Shown here: positions 52,971 through 58,607 of the stretch, piece after piece
Layout: the number at the start of each line of letters is the position of its first letter
Position numbering within the stretch: the first letter of the stretch is position 1
Assembly: GCF_000745265.1 (NCBI RefSeq)
Contig: NZ_JQNN01000001.1
Location: forward strand, 2,542,001-2,606,000
Length of the DNA stretch: 64,000 nt
Direction: 5' to 3'
From: Massilia sp. 9096
GTDB lineage: Bacteria; Pseudomonadota; Gammaproteobacteria; Burkholderiales; Burkholderiaceae_D
Notes under the pieces: generated by a model
What the model was told of the DNA's origin: nothing
The model's database searches: none
Seen by the model: the letters and a program-made list of their open reading frames with translations, nothing else
Program-made: the position numbers and the translations under genes

Positions 52971-53990
52971 TTAGACGCCCAGTAGCTTGATCAATCCAAG
53001 ACTGACGAGGCCAAGCCCGATCAGGGACACCACGACCACGGACGCCACCTTGCCGCCAGCGCGCAGCACGGCGCAGGCATCGACACCGAGGCCAAGTGCA
53101 GCCATCGACATGATCGTGAGGAAACTGGCGGCGTCGTGGGCGGGCGCCAGCAGTGGTGCGGGAACCCAGCCCAACGAACGCAGGCATAGCAGCAGAAGAA
53201 ATCCGACAATGAACCAGGGCACCAAATGCGAAAACTTTGGACGCGCACTAGCGCTGCCCCGGCCAAATACTGACAGCAGCAGGACCACCGGCCCCAGCAT
53301 CAGTACGCGCACCAGTTTTACTAGCGTGCCGATATGGACACTAGTGGCCGAGACCGAGGCGGTCGCCGCCAACACTTGCGGCACCGCATACACCGTCAGT
53401 CCTGCGAACACGCCGTATTCCTTTGGCGTCAGCGACAGCATCCCCGACAGCAGCGGCAGTCCCAACACCACGGGCACGCCGAGCACGGAGGTGAAGGCGA
53501 TCGACGCGGTCACGTCCTTGCTGTCGGCATCGATGACTGGGGCGACTGCGGCAATCGCCGAATTTCCGCAAATCGAATTGCCGCATGCGATTAACAGCGC
53601 CATTTTGCTCGGCAGGCCAACGCTGCGGCCTATTCCATAGCTGAAGACAATCGCAACGACGACTACAACGGCGATGCCGGCGATGAGTCCTAGCCCATTG
53701 GCAAGCAAGGTATTCGCGCTGATTGATGCACCCAATAACACGACTGCAATTTCAAGTAAAAGCTTGGCGCCGACGTGGATGCCTAGTTCGAATTTCGGGT
53801 CAAGTCGGCGCAACGTACGAATGCTTGTACCAAGCAGAATCGCAAGGACTAGGCTTTCCAGCCAAGGGCGGCCGAGCCAACGGATTTCGATTTCCTCTAG
53901 CCCATAGGCAAATAGGGTAACTGCAGCGCACAAGAGCATCCCGGGAACTACACTGCCCGTTCCGCCAAAATATTTATTTGAATTTTTCAT
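52971..53990 (-). CDS. yeiH: YeiH family putative sulfate/sulfite exporter
   Basis: 339 residues, about ten transmembrane helices. Signature GNSICGNSAIAAVAPVIDAD and VYAVPQVLAATASVS of the UPF0324/YeiH family. It is divergent from a LysR gene, the same layout as yeiE-yeiH of E. coli, where YeiE responds to sulfite. Together with the sulfide genes this suggests export of oxidised sulfur. Confidence 0.85.
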   Translation of the reverse strand: MKNSNKYFGGTGSVVPGMLLCAAVTLFAYGLEEIEIRWLGRPWLESLVLAILLGTSIRTLRRLDPKFELGIHVGAKLLLEIAVVLLGASISANTLLANGLGLIAGIAVVVVVAIVFSYGIGRSVGLPSKMALLIACGNSICGNSAIAAVAPVIDADSKDVTASIAFTSVLGVPVVLGLPLLSGMLSLTPKEYGVFAGLTVYAVPQVLAATASVSATSVHIGTLVKLVRVLMLGPVVLLLSVFGRGSASARPKFSHLVPWFIVGFLLLLCLRSLGWVPAPLLAPAHDAASFLTIMSMAALGLGVDACAVLRAGGKVASVVVVSLIGLGLVSLGLIKLLGV

Positions 53991-54085
53991 ATCGATATAC
54001 GTTTATGTAATAAACAGATTATTACTTACCGAGATCGTTCGGTCCATCTTATAATTATTGATAAACCATTCGTGATAAATGAACA

Positions 54086-54973
54086 ATGACATTAGAGCAG
54101 CTAAGGGTGTTCATCGAAGTCGCGCAGCGCCAGCATCTGACGCAAGCCGCTTCCGCGCTTTCTCTTACACCGTCGGCGGTGAGCGCTTCGATCAAGGCGC
54201 TCGAAGAGCGCTACGGAACTGCCCTGTTCCATCGCGTCGGACGACGAATCGAAACAAGCGAGGCAGGCCGTATTTTCCTGACTGAGGCACGTCGCACCGT
54301 GGCTAGTGCACGTGCGGCCGAGACAACGCTGGCGGAACTCGGCACGCTAAAGCGTGGCGCGCTGGCGATCTACGCGAGCCAAACCATCGCAAGCTACTGG
54401 TTGCCTCCCTTGCTGGTGCGCTTCCGTCAAACCTGGCCGGGCATTGACCTGCAGGTTGAAATGGACAATACCGAGAGTGTTGCGCGGTCGGTCCTGCAAG
54501 GTACGGCCGACATCGGCTTCGTGGAGGGCGACATCGGCGAAATACCGCTGGCGAAAAAAATCGTTGGCGAGGACAAGCTGGTCGTGGTGGTCGCCCCAGA
54601 CCACCCCTGGGCTGACGGCAGGCCACTTGGGCCAGCCGACCTCACGAGCGTCCAATGGATCATGCGCGAGGCAGGATCTGGCACGCGTTCAGCGTTCGAG
54701 GCCGCATTCGGCGCACTCGGCATTCCGATTGCTGAGCTGCAGGTCGCGCTCAGCCTGCCTTCGAACGAAGCGGTACGCAGCGCCGTCATGACCGGGCCGT
54801 TCGCGACGGCCATGTCTGAGCTAGTCGTGGCGCCGCAGCTCGAGGTGGGACGACTCGCATTGGCCGCATTCCAGCTACCGACTCGCGCCTTTTCGATGCT
54901 TCGCCACCCGGAACGCCATCGCAGCCGAGCTAGCTTAGCATTCGAGCAGCTCGTGCATTCGCATGCCGTTTAA
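54086..54973 (+). CDS. LysR-type regulator (YeiE/CbbR-like)
   Basis: 295 residues. N-terminal winged helix (MTLEQLRVFIEVAQRQHLTQ, AASALSLTPSAVSASIKALE) and a periplasmic-binding-like sensor domain (YASQTIASYWLPPLLVRFRQ, ADIGFVEGDI). Divergent from yeiH with 95 bases between, an AT-rich gap suited to a shared operator, though no clear T-N11-A site was picked out. Confidence 0.85.
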   Translation: MTLEQLRVFIEVAQRQHLTQAASALSLTPSAVSASIKALEERYGTALFHRVGRRIETSEAGRIFLTEARRTVASARAAETTLAELGTLKRGALAIYASQTIASYWLPPLLVRFRQTWPGIDLQVEMDNTESVARSVLQGTADIGFVEGDIGEIPLAKKIVGEDKLVVVVAPDHPWADGRPLGPADLTSVQWIMREAGSGTRSAFEAAFGALGIPIAELQVALSLPSNEAVRSAVMTGPFATAMSELVVAPQLEVGRLALAAFQLPTRAFSMLRHPERHRSRASLAFEQLVHSHAV

Positions 54974-55296
54974 AACTGGACATGCAGTTGGCACACTGCA
55001 GAGTCTTGCCTGATGGCAGACAGATCGAACATCGCATCTAACCAAGGGCAGAGATAACACACTTTGGCCTTCCCCCATCGTCACGGACACTTCCGTTAGG
55101 CGCATTTTAGATTTTCAAACTGTACCGGGCTGATGTAGCCGATAGTGGAATGACGCCGGCGTGGATTGTAGAACCTTTCGATATAGTCGAACACATCGGC
55201 ACGTAAATCATCCCTGGTCCGGTAGTGCTTTTTGCTTAAGCGCTCAGTCTTGAGCGTCGAGAAGAAACTCTCCATTGCAGCGTTGACGCTCCTATG

Positions 55297-56358
55297 TCAA
55301 GAAGTCTTCGCTGCCGATGCCAAATCTACAAGAATCAGTGGGTAGAGCTCTCGCACAATATATCGCTTCAGGCACCGATGGATTTCCTTGCTCGACATGC
55401 CTTCGGCAGTGCGACGTTCGACGTATGCGCGGGTTCGAGGTTCGCTTCGCATTCGCACCATGGCGATAGTCCACAGTGCATTGTTTGCCTGTCTGTCGCC
55501 GCCACGGTTCAGTCGGTGACGTATTGTTTTGCCAGAGGATGCTGGTAGCGGATTCACGCCACACAGTGCGGCGAGTGCTGCCTCGCTATGCAAGCGTTCA
55601 GGATTGTCGCCAGCGACTGCGATGAGTGTGGCTGCGGTCTGTGGTCCGATACCAAACTGCTCACGCAGCCGTGGCGCCGCCTGGCTTGTCAGTTTCTCTA
55701 GAGAGCTGTCAAGCTCCTTTAGTTCGGCCGCGAGCGCTAACCAGCGCTTCGCTAGCAGACGCAGTGTCGTGGTCAATGTCTCCAGTTGTGTGCTCGTCCC
55801 CAAGTTCCGCAAATGTGCGCATGCCGCAACGCATTGTTCTGCCTTTGCTTTCCAAAGTCGTTCACGAATTTCCTGCGGAGCGCTGACTAGGATTGCCCTC
55901 AACTGATTGATGGCCTGGGTCTTGGCCTTGACTGCGCTTCGTCTCGCAACAGAAACGATGCGCATCGCTTCAGCAGCTCCGCAATGCGACTTGGGGATAG
56001 CAGTGGCGTCCCCAGAAAGCACGGATCGTGCAGCACTTTCTGCATCGGCCGGATCAGATTTTCCTTTCAGCCGTCGCTTGCTGCGGTCCGGGCGATTGAC
56101 CTCTAAAACTTCGATACCTTGCTCGCGTAAAACGCGGGCAAGGCCTGCACCATAAGTTCCAGTACCTTCGACTCCAGCGCGTGTAACGCGGCCCAGGGAG
56201 CGTGCCCAAGCTAACAATTTCTGGTAACCGCTTGCAGTCGTCGGCGTCACTAAAGTTCCGATCAACTTTCCTGCATCATTTATTACCGCGCCAACATGCG
56301 TATCCAAGTGTGTATCGACGCCGAGAATCACCTCGTTTTGCATTGATTGGTTATCCAA
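55297..56358 (-). CDS. IS110-family DEDD transposase
   Basis: 353 residues. N-terminal RuvC-like DEDD domain (VILGVDTHLDTHVGAVIND, GVEGTGTYGAGLARVL, KSDPADAESAA) and a C-terminal Transposase_20 domain with the serine region (ALCGVNPLPASSGKTIRHRL, NRGGDRQANNALW). TTG 56358 has AGGAG five bases upstream and is preferred over ATG 56343. This family cuts and joins DNA with a bridge RNA as guide. All motifs look intact, so it may still be active. Confidence 0.93.
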   Translation of the reverse strand: MDNQSMQNEVILGVDTHLDTHVGAVINDAGKLIGTLVTPTTASGYQKLLAWARSLGRVTRAGVEGTGTYGAGLARVLREQGIEVLEVNRPDRSKRRLKGKSDPADAESAARSVLSGDATAIPKSHCGAAEAMRIVSVARRSAVKAKTQAINQLRAILVSAPQEIRERLWKAKAEQCVAACAHLRNLGTSTQLETLTTTLRLLAKRWLALAAELKELDSSLEKLTSQAAPRLREQFGIGPQTAATLIAVAGDNPERLHSEAALAALCGVNPLPASSGKTIRHRLNRGGDRQANNALWTIAMVRMRSEPRTRAYVERRTAEGMSSKEIHRCLKRYIVRELYPLILVDLASAAKTS

Positions 56359-56394
56359 ATCGTCTCCTTGTTCAAGGTAGGCGCATTACCAATC

Positions 56395-56570
56395 CCATTT
56401 GCTGGACAGGACACTCACGGTGCAGAACAAAGCTCCTATTAGGTCACAGGCATCTGGCCCGGTAACGCTCGGGGAACGCTCTGACCAAACCGACAGGTCA
56501 ACGCAAAGGCAACAGGCCAATCCCAGCACGGGTCAGATTTGGCAGGCGTTCTCGACCATAATAGACTGAG
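56395..56570 (-). ncRNA. candidate IS110 bridge RNA
   Basis: In the leader of the transposase, four guide-like segments occur in the expected order on the minus strand. TGCTGGGA (56528-56521) equals the left target. GCGTTG (56504-56499) is complementary to CAACGC of the right target. ATAGGAGC (56439-56432) equals the left donor end (55295-55288). TGAGTG (56417-56412) is complementary to CACTCA of the right donor end. CTGACC (56536-56531) and GGTCAG (56486-56481) would close the target-binding loop. The exact RNA ends are not known. Confidence 0.72.
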
Positions 56571-57239
56571 TGTCCCAGCAATTACCGCGTCGACTCATGC
56601 TGCAAACGATGCCGTGAGACTCGAGCAAGCGCTGGAAATCCTCACTCGTGTATTGCGAGCCCTGGTCGGAGTGATGCACCACTGCGCGAGGACGACCGCG
56701 TCGGAAAATTGCCATTAGCAGAGCATCCATCACCAGTTGTGCCGTCATCGTCGGCTGCATCGACCAGCCCACCACACGCCGCGAATACAGGTCGAGGACA
56801 ACAGCGACAAACAGCCAGCCTTCGCCAGTCCACACATAAGTAAAGTCGGCCGCCCATTTCTGGTTCGGCCCTGTCGCTTCAAACTGCCGGTCCAACAGAT
56901 TCGGCGCGATGGCGTGGACTGGCGAATCGAGCTGTCCTGGCGCACGACGTCGCTTGTGGCGGGCCTTGATGCCGGCCGCTTTCATCAGTCGCGCTACGCG
57001 GTTCTCGCTGCAGGACAAACCGGCGTCGATAAGGTCTCGCACTACCCGCGGTGAACCATATGTGCCATCGCTGGCATCAAAGCTGTGCTTGATTGCCTTG
57101 AGAAGCTGGGCATTCTCGCGTTCATGCGCACTTGCAGGCCGTCCAAGCCAGTCGTAAAAACCGCTGCTCGATACGCCGAGTAGACGGCACATCATTCGCG
57201 TTGGCCAGATGGTTCGATATTTGACGATGAAGCCGTACT

Positions 57240-57527
57240 TCACTTGAGGTCGGCTGCGAAGTAGCCGAGCGCCTTTTTTAATATGTCGCGCTCCGTCTTG
57301 ACCTTCGCCAGCTCGCGTCGCATACGCTCGTATTCCTGGGCCGACACTTTCTCGCTCCGGACGGCGACCTCTGCATCGACGTCAGCATCTCTGCACCACC
57401 GTCCCAGCAAATTGGCGCCAATGCCAAGGTCACGGGCTATCGCCGCCTTGCTCGCACCAGGCTGGCCTACCAGCTTGACTGCTTCGCGCTTAAACTCTTC
57501 TGAAAATACTCGTCTTTCACGTGCCAT
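57240..57527 (-). CDS. IS3-family transposase OrfA
   Basis: 95 residues. Helix-turn-helix (FSEEFKREAVKLVGQPGASK, AIARDLGIGANLLGRWCR) and a leucine-zipper-like C-terminus (YERMRRELAKVKTERDILKK). The slippery AAAAAAG (57279-57273) near its end would allow the -1 frameshift that fuses OrfA to OrfB. OrfA itself is intact. Confidence 0.9.
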   Translation of the reverse strand: MARERRVFSEEFKREAVKLVGQPGASKAAIARDLGIGANLLGRWCRDADVDAEVAVRSEKVSAQEYERMRRELAKVKTERDILKKALGYFAADLK

Positions 57528-57555
57528 GTAATACCTCCGATAGGGACATCATACC

Positions 57556-57564
57556 TATCGAAAG
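57556..57564. repeat. 9-bp target duplication, left copy
   Basis: TATCGAAAG, repeated exactly at 58608-58616 on the other side of the IS903-type element. Confidence 0.9.
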
Positions 57565-58607
57565 GGCTTTGTTGCACAAATAAGCTGAGTGCGTAATACC
57601 CCAAACCCCGGACGGATTTATGGCATGGCCACCGTCATCGGTGTACCCAGGTGGGTGAAGCGATTCAGAATGGCAGCACGTACCTGCAGCTCAGCTACCT
57701 GACGATCGAAGTCGCGTGCCATCACGCGTTCTCCCAGTAACTTAAAGCATCGCATTTTCGTCTCGACCAGACTGCGTCGGTGATAGCCACTCCACTTCTT
57801 CCAGATCGCCCGGCCCAAGCGGCGCGTAGCGTGGAAGATGGCGTTTCGGGCCTCGGCGCCAGGACGTCGATCCTTCCACAGCTTGGCATTCTTGCGCGTT
57901 GGGATTATGGCGTGCGCACCACGGCGCGCAATGGCTTCATGACACCCTTTGGTGTCATAGGCGCCGTCTCCACTGACGCTTGCGATGGATTCGCCCAGGT
58001 CGATTTGTTCCAGCAGACCGGCCATCATGGGCGCATCGCCAGTGGCGTTATCGGTCACTTCGATGGCACGGATTTCTAGCGTAGTGGCATCAATACCCAA
58101 GTGGACCTTGCGCCATTGGCGGCGATAGTCAGCCCCATGCTTTTTGGTTTTCCACTCACCTTCGCCCAGCATCTTGATGCCGGTGCTATCAACAAGAAGG
58201 TGTAATCCGGTTGTCGTCGGCTGCGCGCTGATCGTCACTGCAAGATGCTTTTGACGACGGCTGACGGTGCTGAAGTCGGGTACCTGCCAGTCCAGACCCG
58301 CAAGCTTGAGCAGGCTTTGCGCCATCCCCATCGCCTGGCGTAACGCCAGGTTGAACAAGCTTTTGATGGTCAAGCAAAACTGGATTGCTGCCTCACTGTA
58401 CTTTTTGCTGCGCCCACGCTTGCCGCTGGGCTTGCCGTGCCAACACATGTTTGGGTCCAGCCAGATCAGCAGCGAACCGCGTCTCTTGAGGGCCTCGTTG
58501 TACTGTTTCCAGTTGGTCGTTCGATACTTCGGCTTGACAGGTGCGCTCATGTCGTAAGTTTACCCACCCTCGCCATGTGCTGCTCGCGAGGTTTGTGCAA
58601 CAAAGCC
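57565..58607 (-). mobile_element. IS5-family, IS903-group element
   Basis: 1043 bases. Terminal inverted repeats GGCTTTGTTGCACAAA (57565-57580) and TTTGTGCAACAAAGCC (58592-58607), perfect over 16 bases. The 9-base duplication TATCGAAAG on both sides is the IS903-group length. It landed inside the left end of the IS3 element, between its terminal repeat and orfA. The perfect ends suggest a recent insertion. Confidence 0.95.
57618..58550 (-). CDS. IS5-family transposase (IS903 group)
   Basis: 310 residues. DDE domain: HLLVDSTGIKMLGEGEW (first Asp), SVSGDGAYDTKGCHEAI (second Asp), and YHRRSLVETKMRCFKLLGER (Glu, Y-2-R-3-E type). Full length and intact. Confidence 0.95.
   Translation of the reverse strand: MSAPVKPKYRTTNWKQYNEALKRRGSLLIWLDPNMCWHGKPSGKRGRSKKYSEAAIQFCLTIKSLFNLALRQAMGMAQSLLKLAGLDWQVPDFSTVSRRQKHLAVTISAQPTTTGLHLLVDSTGIKMLGEGEWKTKKHGADYRRQWRKVHLGIDATTLEIRAIEVTDNATGDAPMMAGLLEQIDLGESIASVSGDGAYDTKGCHEAIARRGAHAIIPTRKNAKLWKDRRPGAEARNAIFHATRRLGRAIWKKWSGYHRRSLVETKMRCFKLLGERVMARDFDRQVAELQVRAAILNRFTHLGTPMTVAMP

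Follow-up and report, generated by a model that had tools for sequence, protein, structure and literature searches.

The window, i.e., the whole 64,000-nucleotide stretch of Massilia sp. 9096 that was analyzed, contains on its minus strand an intact IS110-type element, which we regard with a probability of about 0.94 as an ISEc21/IS621-type insertion sequence of the IS110 group, the leader of which encodes a bridge RNA (seekRNA) that directs insertion. The bridge RNA or seekRNA mechanism was published in 2024 (PMC11208160, PMC11187229). An earlier note on the letters of the window had proposed a leader-encoded bridge RNA that matches the target and ends of its own element, and this proposal is supported by the fold of the leader, the relation between guides and targets among relatives, empty insertion sites, and a second copy in the same genome. 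The coordinates of the features are summarized in Table 1.

Table 1. Features of the IS110-group element and its host IS3 in the window.
Feature	Positions	Strand	Basis
IS110-group insertion sequence, about 1287 bp including one core dinucleotide per end	55285..56572	minus	empty-site comparison, second copy
DEDD recombinase (transposase), 353 aa, TTG start	55297..56358	minus	Pfam, alignment to 8wt6
Predicted bridge RNA (seekRNA), two internal loops	56389..56551	minus	covariance model R1, covariation
Target-loop closing helix, 5' strand AAUC-U-GAC	56532..56539	minus	alignment columns 38-45 vs 89-95
Target-loop closing helix, 3' strand GUC-GGUU	56488..56494	minus	same alignment columns
Left target guide (LTG), UGCUGGGA (DNA TGCTGGGA)	56521..56528	minus	8/8 with LT; changes with target in relatives
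Right target guide (RTG), GCGUUG	56499..56504	minus	6/6 with RT CAACGC; tracks target across relatives
Left donor guide (LDG), AUAGGAGC	56432..56439	minus	matches right end (RE) ATAGGAGC (55288-55295); nearly invariant in relatives
Right donor guide (RDG), UGAGUG	56412..56417	minus	complementary to left end (LE) CACTCA; nearly invariant
Left end/right donor (RD), CACTCA, with core CA	56567..56572	minus	sequence match
Right end/left donor (LD), ATAGGAGCGT	55286..55295	minus	sequence match
-35-like TTGACA at right end	55295..55300	minus	half of predicted circle-junction promoter
-10-like TATTAT at left end	56558..56563	minus	18 bp from TTGACA when ends joined
Left target (LT), TGCTGGGA, within the Cys-Trp-Asp codons of IS3 orfB	56573..56580	minus	sequence match, empty sites
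Right target (RT), CAACGC (core CA at 55284-55285)	55280..55285	minus	sequence match, empty sites
Host IS3-type orfB 5' part (rve domain), interrupted after Asn-Cys-Trp at 56573	56533..57243	minus	Pfam
Host IS3 orfB 3' part	55064..55285	minus	221-225 nt at 99.6-100% identity with the three intact copies
Host IS3-type orfA	57240..57527	minus	Pfam HTH_Tnp_1 1.4e-11

The element, its insertion site, and the segments of its leader

The placement of an IS110 element at these ends was borne out by both Pfam domains of the recombinase, DEDD_Tnp_IS110 (PF01548, 4e-22) and Transposase_20 (PF02371, 5.7e-21), and by three empty sites. In a distant alignment with IS621 (8wt6, E 6.5e-11), read by eye, the recombinase has D, E, D, D, and S opposite D11, E60, D102, D105, and S241, which were reported as the essential residues of IS621 (PMC11208158), and the protein thus combines a DEDD RuvC-like domain with a Tnp domain that has the catalytic Ser. 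The 5' open reading frame of the host orfB (rve, 6.2e-31; HTH_21, 1.5e-17) continues into the element, and the gene is broken after the codons for Gly-Asn-Cys-Trp. The flanks of three uninterrupted copies of the host IS3 in the genome are 99.6-100% identical up to the junction, and since these three empty sites read TGCTGGGACAACGC, both ends and the CA core are right; the comparison revealed no target duplication on insertion and a shared core dinucleotide. The motif TGYTGGGAYAAYGC is uninterrupted exactly three times in the 5.7-Mb genome, each time at the end of one of its nine rve-domain matches, and a looser target pattern returned the same three sites. The surroundings form a cluster of insertion sequences, with a DDE_Tnp_1 transposase gene, which we take to be IS5-like, directly upstream of the host IS3 (57618-58550), and a Cons_hypoth698 (PF03601) gene with a divergent LysR-type regulator adjoining the cluster (52971-54973).

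The genome has two copies of the element, identical over 1287 bases at the rounding of the tool. The second copy, on the 156-kb contig 2, lies inside a different IS3 gene, and its target is TGCTGGGA-TA-ATGC, with the core T taken from the left junction and no empty copy of that IS3 found in the genome; a search with flanks of 700 + 300 nt (blastn, default megablast, E 1e-5) returned no shared match between the two host IS3 genes. Both differences from the target in the window, TGCTGGGA-CA-ACGC, are C-to-T, and both can pair by wobble because a G of the unchanged right guide stands opposite. The earlier note had named copies in unrelated targets with an unchanged loop as an observation that would speak against a guide; the second copy was found in an equivalent target with the guide loop unchanged.

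Regarding the leader, all four segments that had been proposed are present on the minus strand at the positions and in the order first read, namely, the guides for the left target, right target, left donor, and right donor. The longest words shared by the leader with LT, RT, LD, and RD are 8, 6, 8, and 6 nt (sum 28), and in 4000 dinucleotide shuffles of the 200-nt leader, the first 14 nt of which were left out, equally long words were present in 104, 1374, 30, and 1759 shuffles, respectively. The two 6-nt matches alone are, therefore, no evidence, and the sum of 28 was reached in 9/4000 shuffles (p about 0.002 before counting the order). The assertion that such matches are unlikely by chance thus holds for their sum, but is weaker than was implied because both 6-nt matches are ordinary, and the single-copy argument from the window leader is suggestive, not decisive. 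The donor matches had been described as lying next to the CA core; the LD and RD matches themselves were confirmed, but that of LD does not end at the core, ATAGGAGC being followed by GT in the element and by TT in the RNA before CA.

Fold, guides, and targets among relatives

Relatives were collected by a protein search (78 loci), from whole-genome sets, in which 6/199, 3/399, and 3/398 genomes had matches, from 14 plasmid records taken out of a set of 40 and one further ISEc21-family record, and by a DNA pattern, giving 113 loci when filtered. Viral contigs contained no relative by protein and five pattern matches. The plasmids come from Beta- and Gammaproteobacteria, and the other loci include genome records labelled Acidobacteriota and Spirochaetota. 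A further protein search found 2214 proteins at E up to 1e-100 among 7998 scored; one relative among the 120 matches listed is named 'IS110 family RNA-guided transposase', and current annotation, therefore, already files such proteins as RNA-guided. A donor-loop pattern was passed by 66 of the 113 loci, with one row each, and failed by 47 (truncated, partial, distant, or non-element); duplicates (L081, L087, L091, and L032) and L020, in which no left end was found, were then omitted to give a final set of 61.

A script for IS3-type motifs (Asn-Cys-Trp-Asp before and Asn-x-x-x-Glu after the element; a motif test, not a profile search) found them on both sides of 46 of the 61 elements, on the left only in six (the right side being missing in four and non-matching in L052 and L105), on the right only in five (L004, L016, L021, L045, and L098), and on neither side or unknown in four. 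Flank translations read by eye revealed IS3 on the left of L103 and identified the right match of L021 as a coincidence. By motif and eye, 57/61 elements have IS3-family transposase sequence on at least one side, at the Asn-Cys-Trp-Asp-Asn codons, including four with IS3 sequence on the right only or with a damaged motif. Outside IS3 genes are L010, L015, and L021, with the left flank TGCTGGGA, and L100, with TGTGTGGA; the right halves of their targets match less well, at 3, 4, and 5 of 6 bases in L010, L021, and L100, respectively. Since these exceptions retain the left target, recognition is suggested to be of sequence, not of the gene.

L016, L045, and L098 have IS3 sequence on the right, but their left flanks differ from the target and contain ATAGGA, like the right end of the element (background of 0.3% per 16-nt window). 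We do not claim that these flanks arose by guided recombination at donor-like sites, given that ATAGGA is spaced 9, 12, and 12 from the core, not 10; they might be adjacent deletions at such sites. In L103, four additional bases, GCGT, which are those that close the right end of the element, stand between the target TGTTGGGA and the core.

An alignment of 59 distinct leaders (A1) was folded by RNAalifold into two internal loops with 39 pairs, 32 of which were counted, the seven omitted pairs being inside the donor loop, between guide regions, and nearly invariant. The 32-pair fold is paired in 96.8% of cells and has 133 double-change cells vs 31.7 ± 4.6 in shuffles (0/500 as high); slid versions of the fold pair at 33-43%, a comparison that favors the fold because the structure was derived from the same alignment. 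The helix that had been proposed to close the target loop, CTGACC/GGTCAG, did not survive this analysis: its letters are present, yet 49.4% of cells pair vs 49.1% in its shuffles. The loop is closed instead by AAUC-U-GAC/GUC-GGUU, in which 99.5% of cells are paired and three pairs have double changes, nested in an outer GAACGC/GCGUUC helix.

A covariance model had been suggested as a check, and it recovered the two-loop fold. R1, which was built from 33 leaders excluding the window copy and its twin, but including their nearest relatives, matches the window leader with 174.8 bits (E 5.2e-40). Matches were also obtained just upstream of the genes in the ISEc21-like L084, L085, L086, L092, and L093 (E-values among the five of 3.1e-9, 1.2e-7, 8.9e-7, 1.6e-6, and 5e-5) and in the leader of L106, annotated 'ISEc21 family' (E 0.0063), these E-values being rough; neither L067 nor any of the viral loci L109-L113 was listed with an R1 match at E up to 1. 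Covariation and the model thus indicate a structured RNA encoded in the long left end, upstream of the gene, with LTG, RTG, LDG, and RDG in this order in two internal loops and matching the target and donor. In single-sequence folding, the leader was not more stable than shuffles (z -0.76). Rfam 15 (55000-57600 of the window, E up to 5) returned no bridge RNA family, only a sub-threshold match to the unrelated family IRES_Bip (15.6 bits, cut-off 40); the bridge RNA class seems absent from Rfam 15, or too divergent for it.

Guides were compared with flanks in 60 rows (L103 omitted), 55 of which have both flanks. All 8 bases of LTG agree with the left flank in 42 rows, 7 agree in 13, and 6 or fewer in five, such that 7-8 of 8 agree in 55/60. 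RTG, two of the six bases of which are the core and fixed on the right by the selection pattern, pairs with wobble allowed at 6/6 in 39 of 55 rows, 5 in 13, 4 in one (L021), and 3 in two (L010 and L033). The core CA at the right end in 55/55 rows was discarded as evidence because the search pattern itself required GTCA there. With the core excluded, the summed identity between own guides and targets across all 55 two-flank elements was 586 vs 553.7 ± 4.65 with targets reshuffled (0/20000), and without the three TAC guides it was 551 vs 534.8 ± 4.02 (4/20000), statistics that ignore kinship; L016, L045, and L098 were omitted from a first shuffle and restored in this final one. Without the TAC guides, the signal is carried by RTG (11/20000), and LTG alone is not significant (1367/20000).

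Guide and target have changed together in L028 (AGTTACGA/AGTTACGA), L043 (AGCTACGA/AGCTACGA), and, with one mismatch, L082 (TGCTACGA/TGCTATGA). The clearest case is the pair L028 and L043, sister elements in Ser-Tyr-Asp IS3 genes, the guides of which differ at one synonymous base, as do their targets (AGTTACGA and AGCTACGA). A quick recombinase tree of 54 rows placed TAC guides on two separate branches, with three guide-class changes in all, one of which is the split from ISEc21; the test of the TAC codon omits L016, L045, L098, L100, and L103. Independent tree pairs agreed in 2/2, about 2.9/4, and about 1.5/5, with none opposite, and are too few to reach 0.05. A single position of the right guide, taken by itself in a 2 x 2 test, did not reach significance either (p 0.067). 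The guide thus covaries with the target among relatives, with few independent changes. Donor guides and ends hardly vary, and the donor loop consequently rests on position and homology; the two variants, L022 and L047, are not cleanly compensatory, and covariation of the donor guide was dropped because the consensus guide suits the left end of L022 at least as well as the guide of L022 itself.

Proposed mechanism and alternative explanations

By homology to ISEc21 (PMC11187229) and IS621 (PMC11208160), the most likely role of the leader RNA is to form a bridge between the target and the excised circle. The RNA is inferred from this homology to be made, to bind the recombinase, and to direct circle formation and insertion. 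The target loop would pair with both strands of TGCTGGGA-YA-AYGC, LTG with the bottom strand and RTG with the top strand including the core, and the donor loop would pair with both ends of the element as joined in the excised circle, after which the DEDD recombinase may exchange strands at the YA core. The element would land in and break IS3-family transposase genes because the guide reads the conserved Asn-Cys-Trp-Asp-Asn codons. A promoter formed at the circle junction, as has been reported for IS621 (PMC11208158) and ISEc21 (PMC11187229), would by the same homology drive the RNA. Joined ends would give TTGACA, 18 bp, and a yAnnnT hexamer in 55/56 elements with both ends, of which only the hexamer and the spacing are independent because most letters of TTGACA were already required by the right-end search pattern.

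It is very improbable that protein-DNA contacts choose the site and that the leader matches are target remnants or products of chance. Two of the four matches, at just 6 nt, are expected by chance, and the same guide and the same target are common to most relatives, such that common descent alone could yield the match; however, guide and target have changed together on two branches, matching to the own target exceeds reshuffling without the co-changed guides also (4/20000, ignoring kinship), the fold covaries, and the leader RNA of ISEc21 was reported to be essential and reprogrammable (PMC11187229). The location of the leader directly upstream of the gene and its hairpins would also suit an attenuator or antisense regulator of the recombinase with the same fold and a secondary role in targeting, but this is hardly credible given that those loop positions that vary do so in keeping with the insertion site and that the layout equals the published layout of IS621.

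Many host IS3 genes are related, and elements may, in principle, have reached them by being copied along with IS3 rather than by independent insertion. We give this explanation scant credence: the two host IS3 genes of the genome have no shared match at the default megablast setting, yet their elements are identical, three intact IS3 copies provide empty sites, host phyla differ, and four elements are outside IS3 genes.

Relation to known systems and significance

ISEc21 was reported to target IS3 genes at the codons around the second catalytic Asp, and its RNA co-purifies with its transposase, is needed for transposition, and is reprogrammable (PMC11187229). The present element resembles it in the upstream leader RNA, with the same covariance model matching L106 and five related loci, in targeting a block of codons in IS3-family transposase genes, and in a recombinase that is 44% identical. 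In contrast to the codons of the second Asp in ISEc21, the target is Asn-Cys-Trp-Asp-Asn, about 28-30 codons later (counted in L106 and L085), the guides are unlike, and the two groups separate fully on the recombinase tree. The right flanks of L106, L085, and L092 encode QGSHY, QGSQY, and QGSQF, and the Asn-Cys-Trp-Asp-Asn block is unoccupied in L106 and L085. One IS3 gene of L095 (E. coli plasmid NZ_CP010123.1) contains both the element and, about 100 bp upstream of it, an ISEc21-type right end (1690-1795 of the locus); a single target gene thus has members of two IS110 groups at two of its codon blocks. Another recurring end, TTGCGACGACC..TTGA.TCC, abuts the IS3 codons after the His-Ser-Asp region in L013, L017, L042, and L043 at about 1170-1200 (and, by eye, in L038); the reading frame beside it in L042 looks by eye like an IS30-type transposase, and this end may belong to a third class of elements that inserts into this part of IS3.

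With IS621, the element shares a DEDD recombinase with the same catalytic residues, the guide order LTG, RTG, LDG, and RDG, the strand assignment, and the inclusion of the core in RTG and RDG (PMC11208160, PMC11208158); it differs in a YA core vs CT, in LTG and LDG not pairing fully through the core, in its distant sequence (E 6.5e-11), and in IS3 genes as the target. The IS1111 group (ISPa11, ISKpn4, and others) also comprises RNA-guided DEDD recombinases with fixed targets, but was reported to have the RNA downstream of the gene, a reversed guide order, and long subterminal repeats (PMC11187229), whereas the model match lies upstream of the gene in the present element.

In the open-licence literature searched, no title or abstract start among those listed named this target, and TGCTGGGA and IS110 occurred together in no paper; we thus found no description of the group and its preferred target, although the group is perhaps already in ISfinder. 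Both guidance by an RNA and the targeting of IS3 by an IS110 element are already known, natural redirection was reported for ISMch6 (PMC11187229), and the published mechanism is unchanged by the present finding. What is not described in the literature found is the Asn-Cys-Trp-Asp-Asn target of this group.

We see even odds for a broader reading, in which a long-lived IS110 lineage is a specialist hyperparasite of IS3 elements that uses one guide against the near-invariant Asn-Cys-Trp-Asp-Asn codons, with sub-lineages having re-aimed the guide on moving to Tyr-encoding IS3 subgroups (Ser-Tyr-Asp or Cys-Tyr-Asp). In 40/56 elements, each of the two synonymous Y positions of YAAYGC faces a G of the right guide, such that either codon pairs by Watson-Crick or wobble. 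If this reading is true, the target would be common, repeated, and dispensable, and every insertion would silence a competitor transposase. The three TAC guides and several right-guide variants form a natural series in which guide and target have co-changed within one RNA scaffold, and which is useful for learning the positions, wobbles, and cores that this subgroup tolerates. Two related IS110 groups, the present one and ISEc21, aim at two codon blocks of IS3 genes, which opens guide-directed parasitism of IS3 to direct study.
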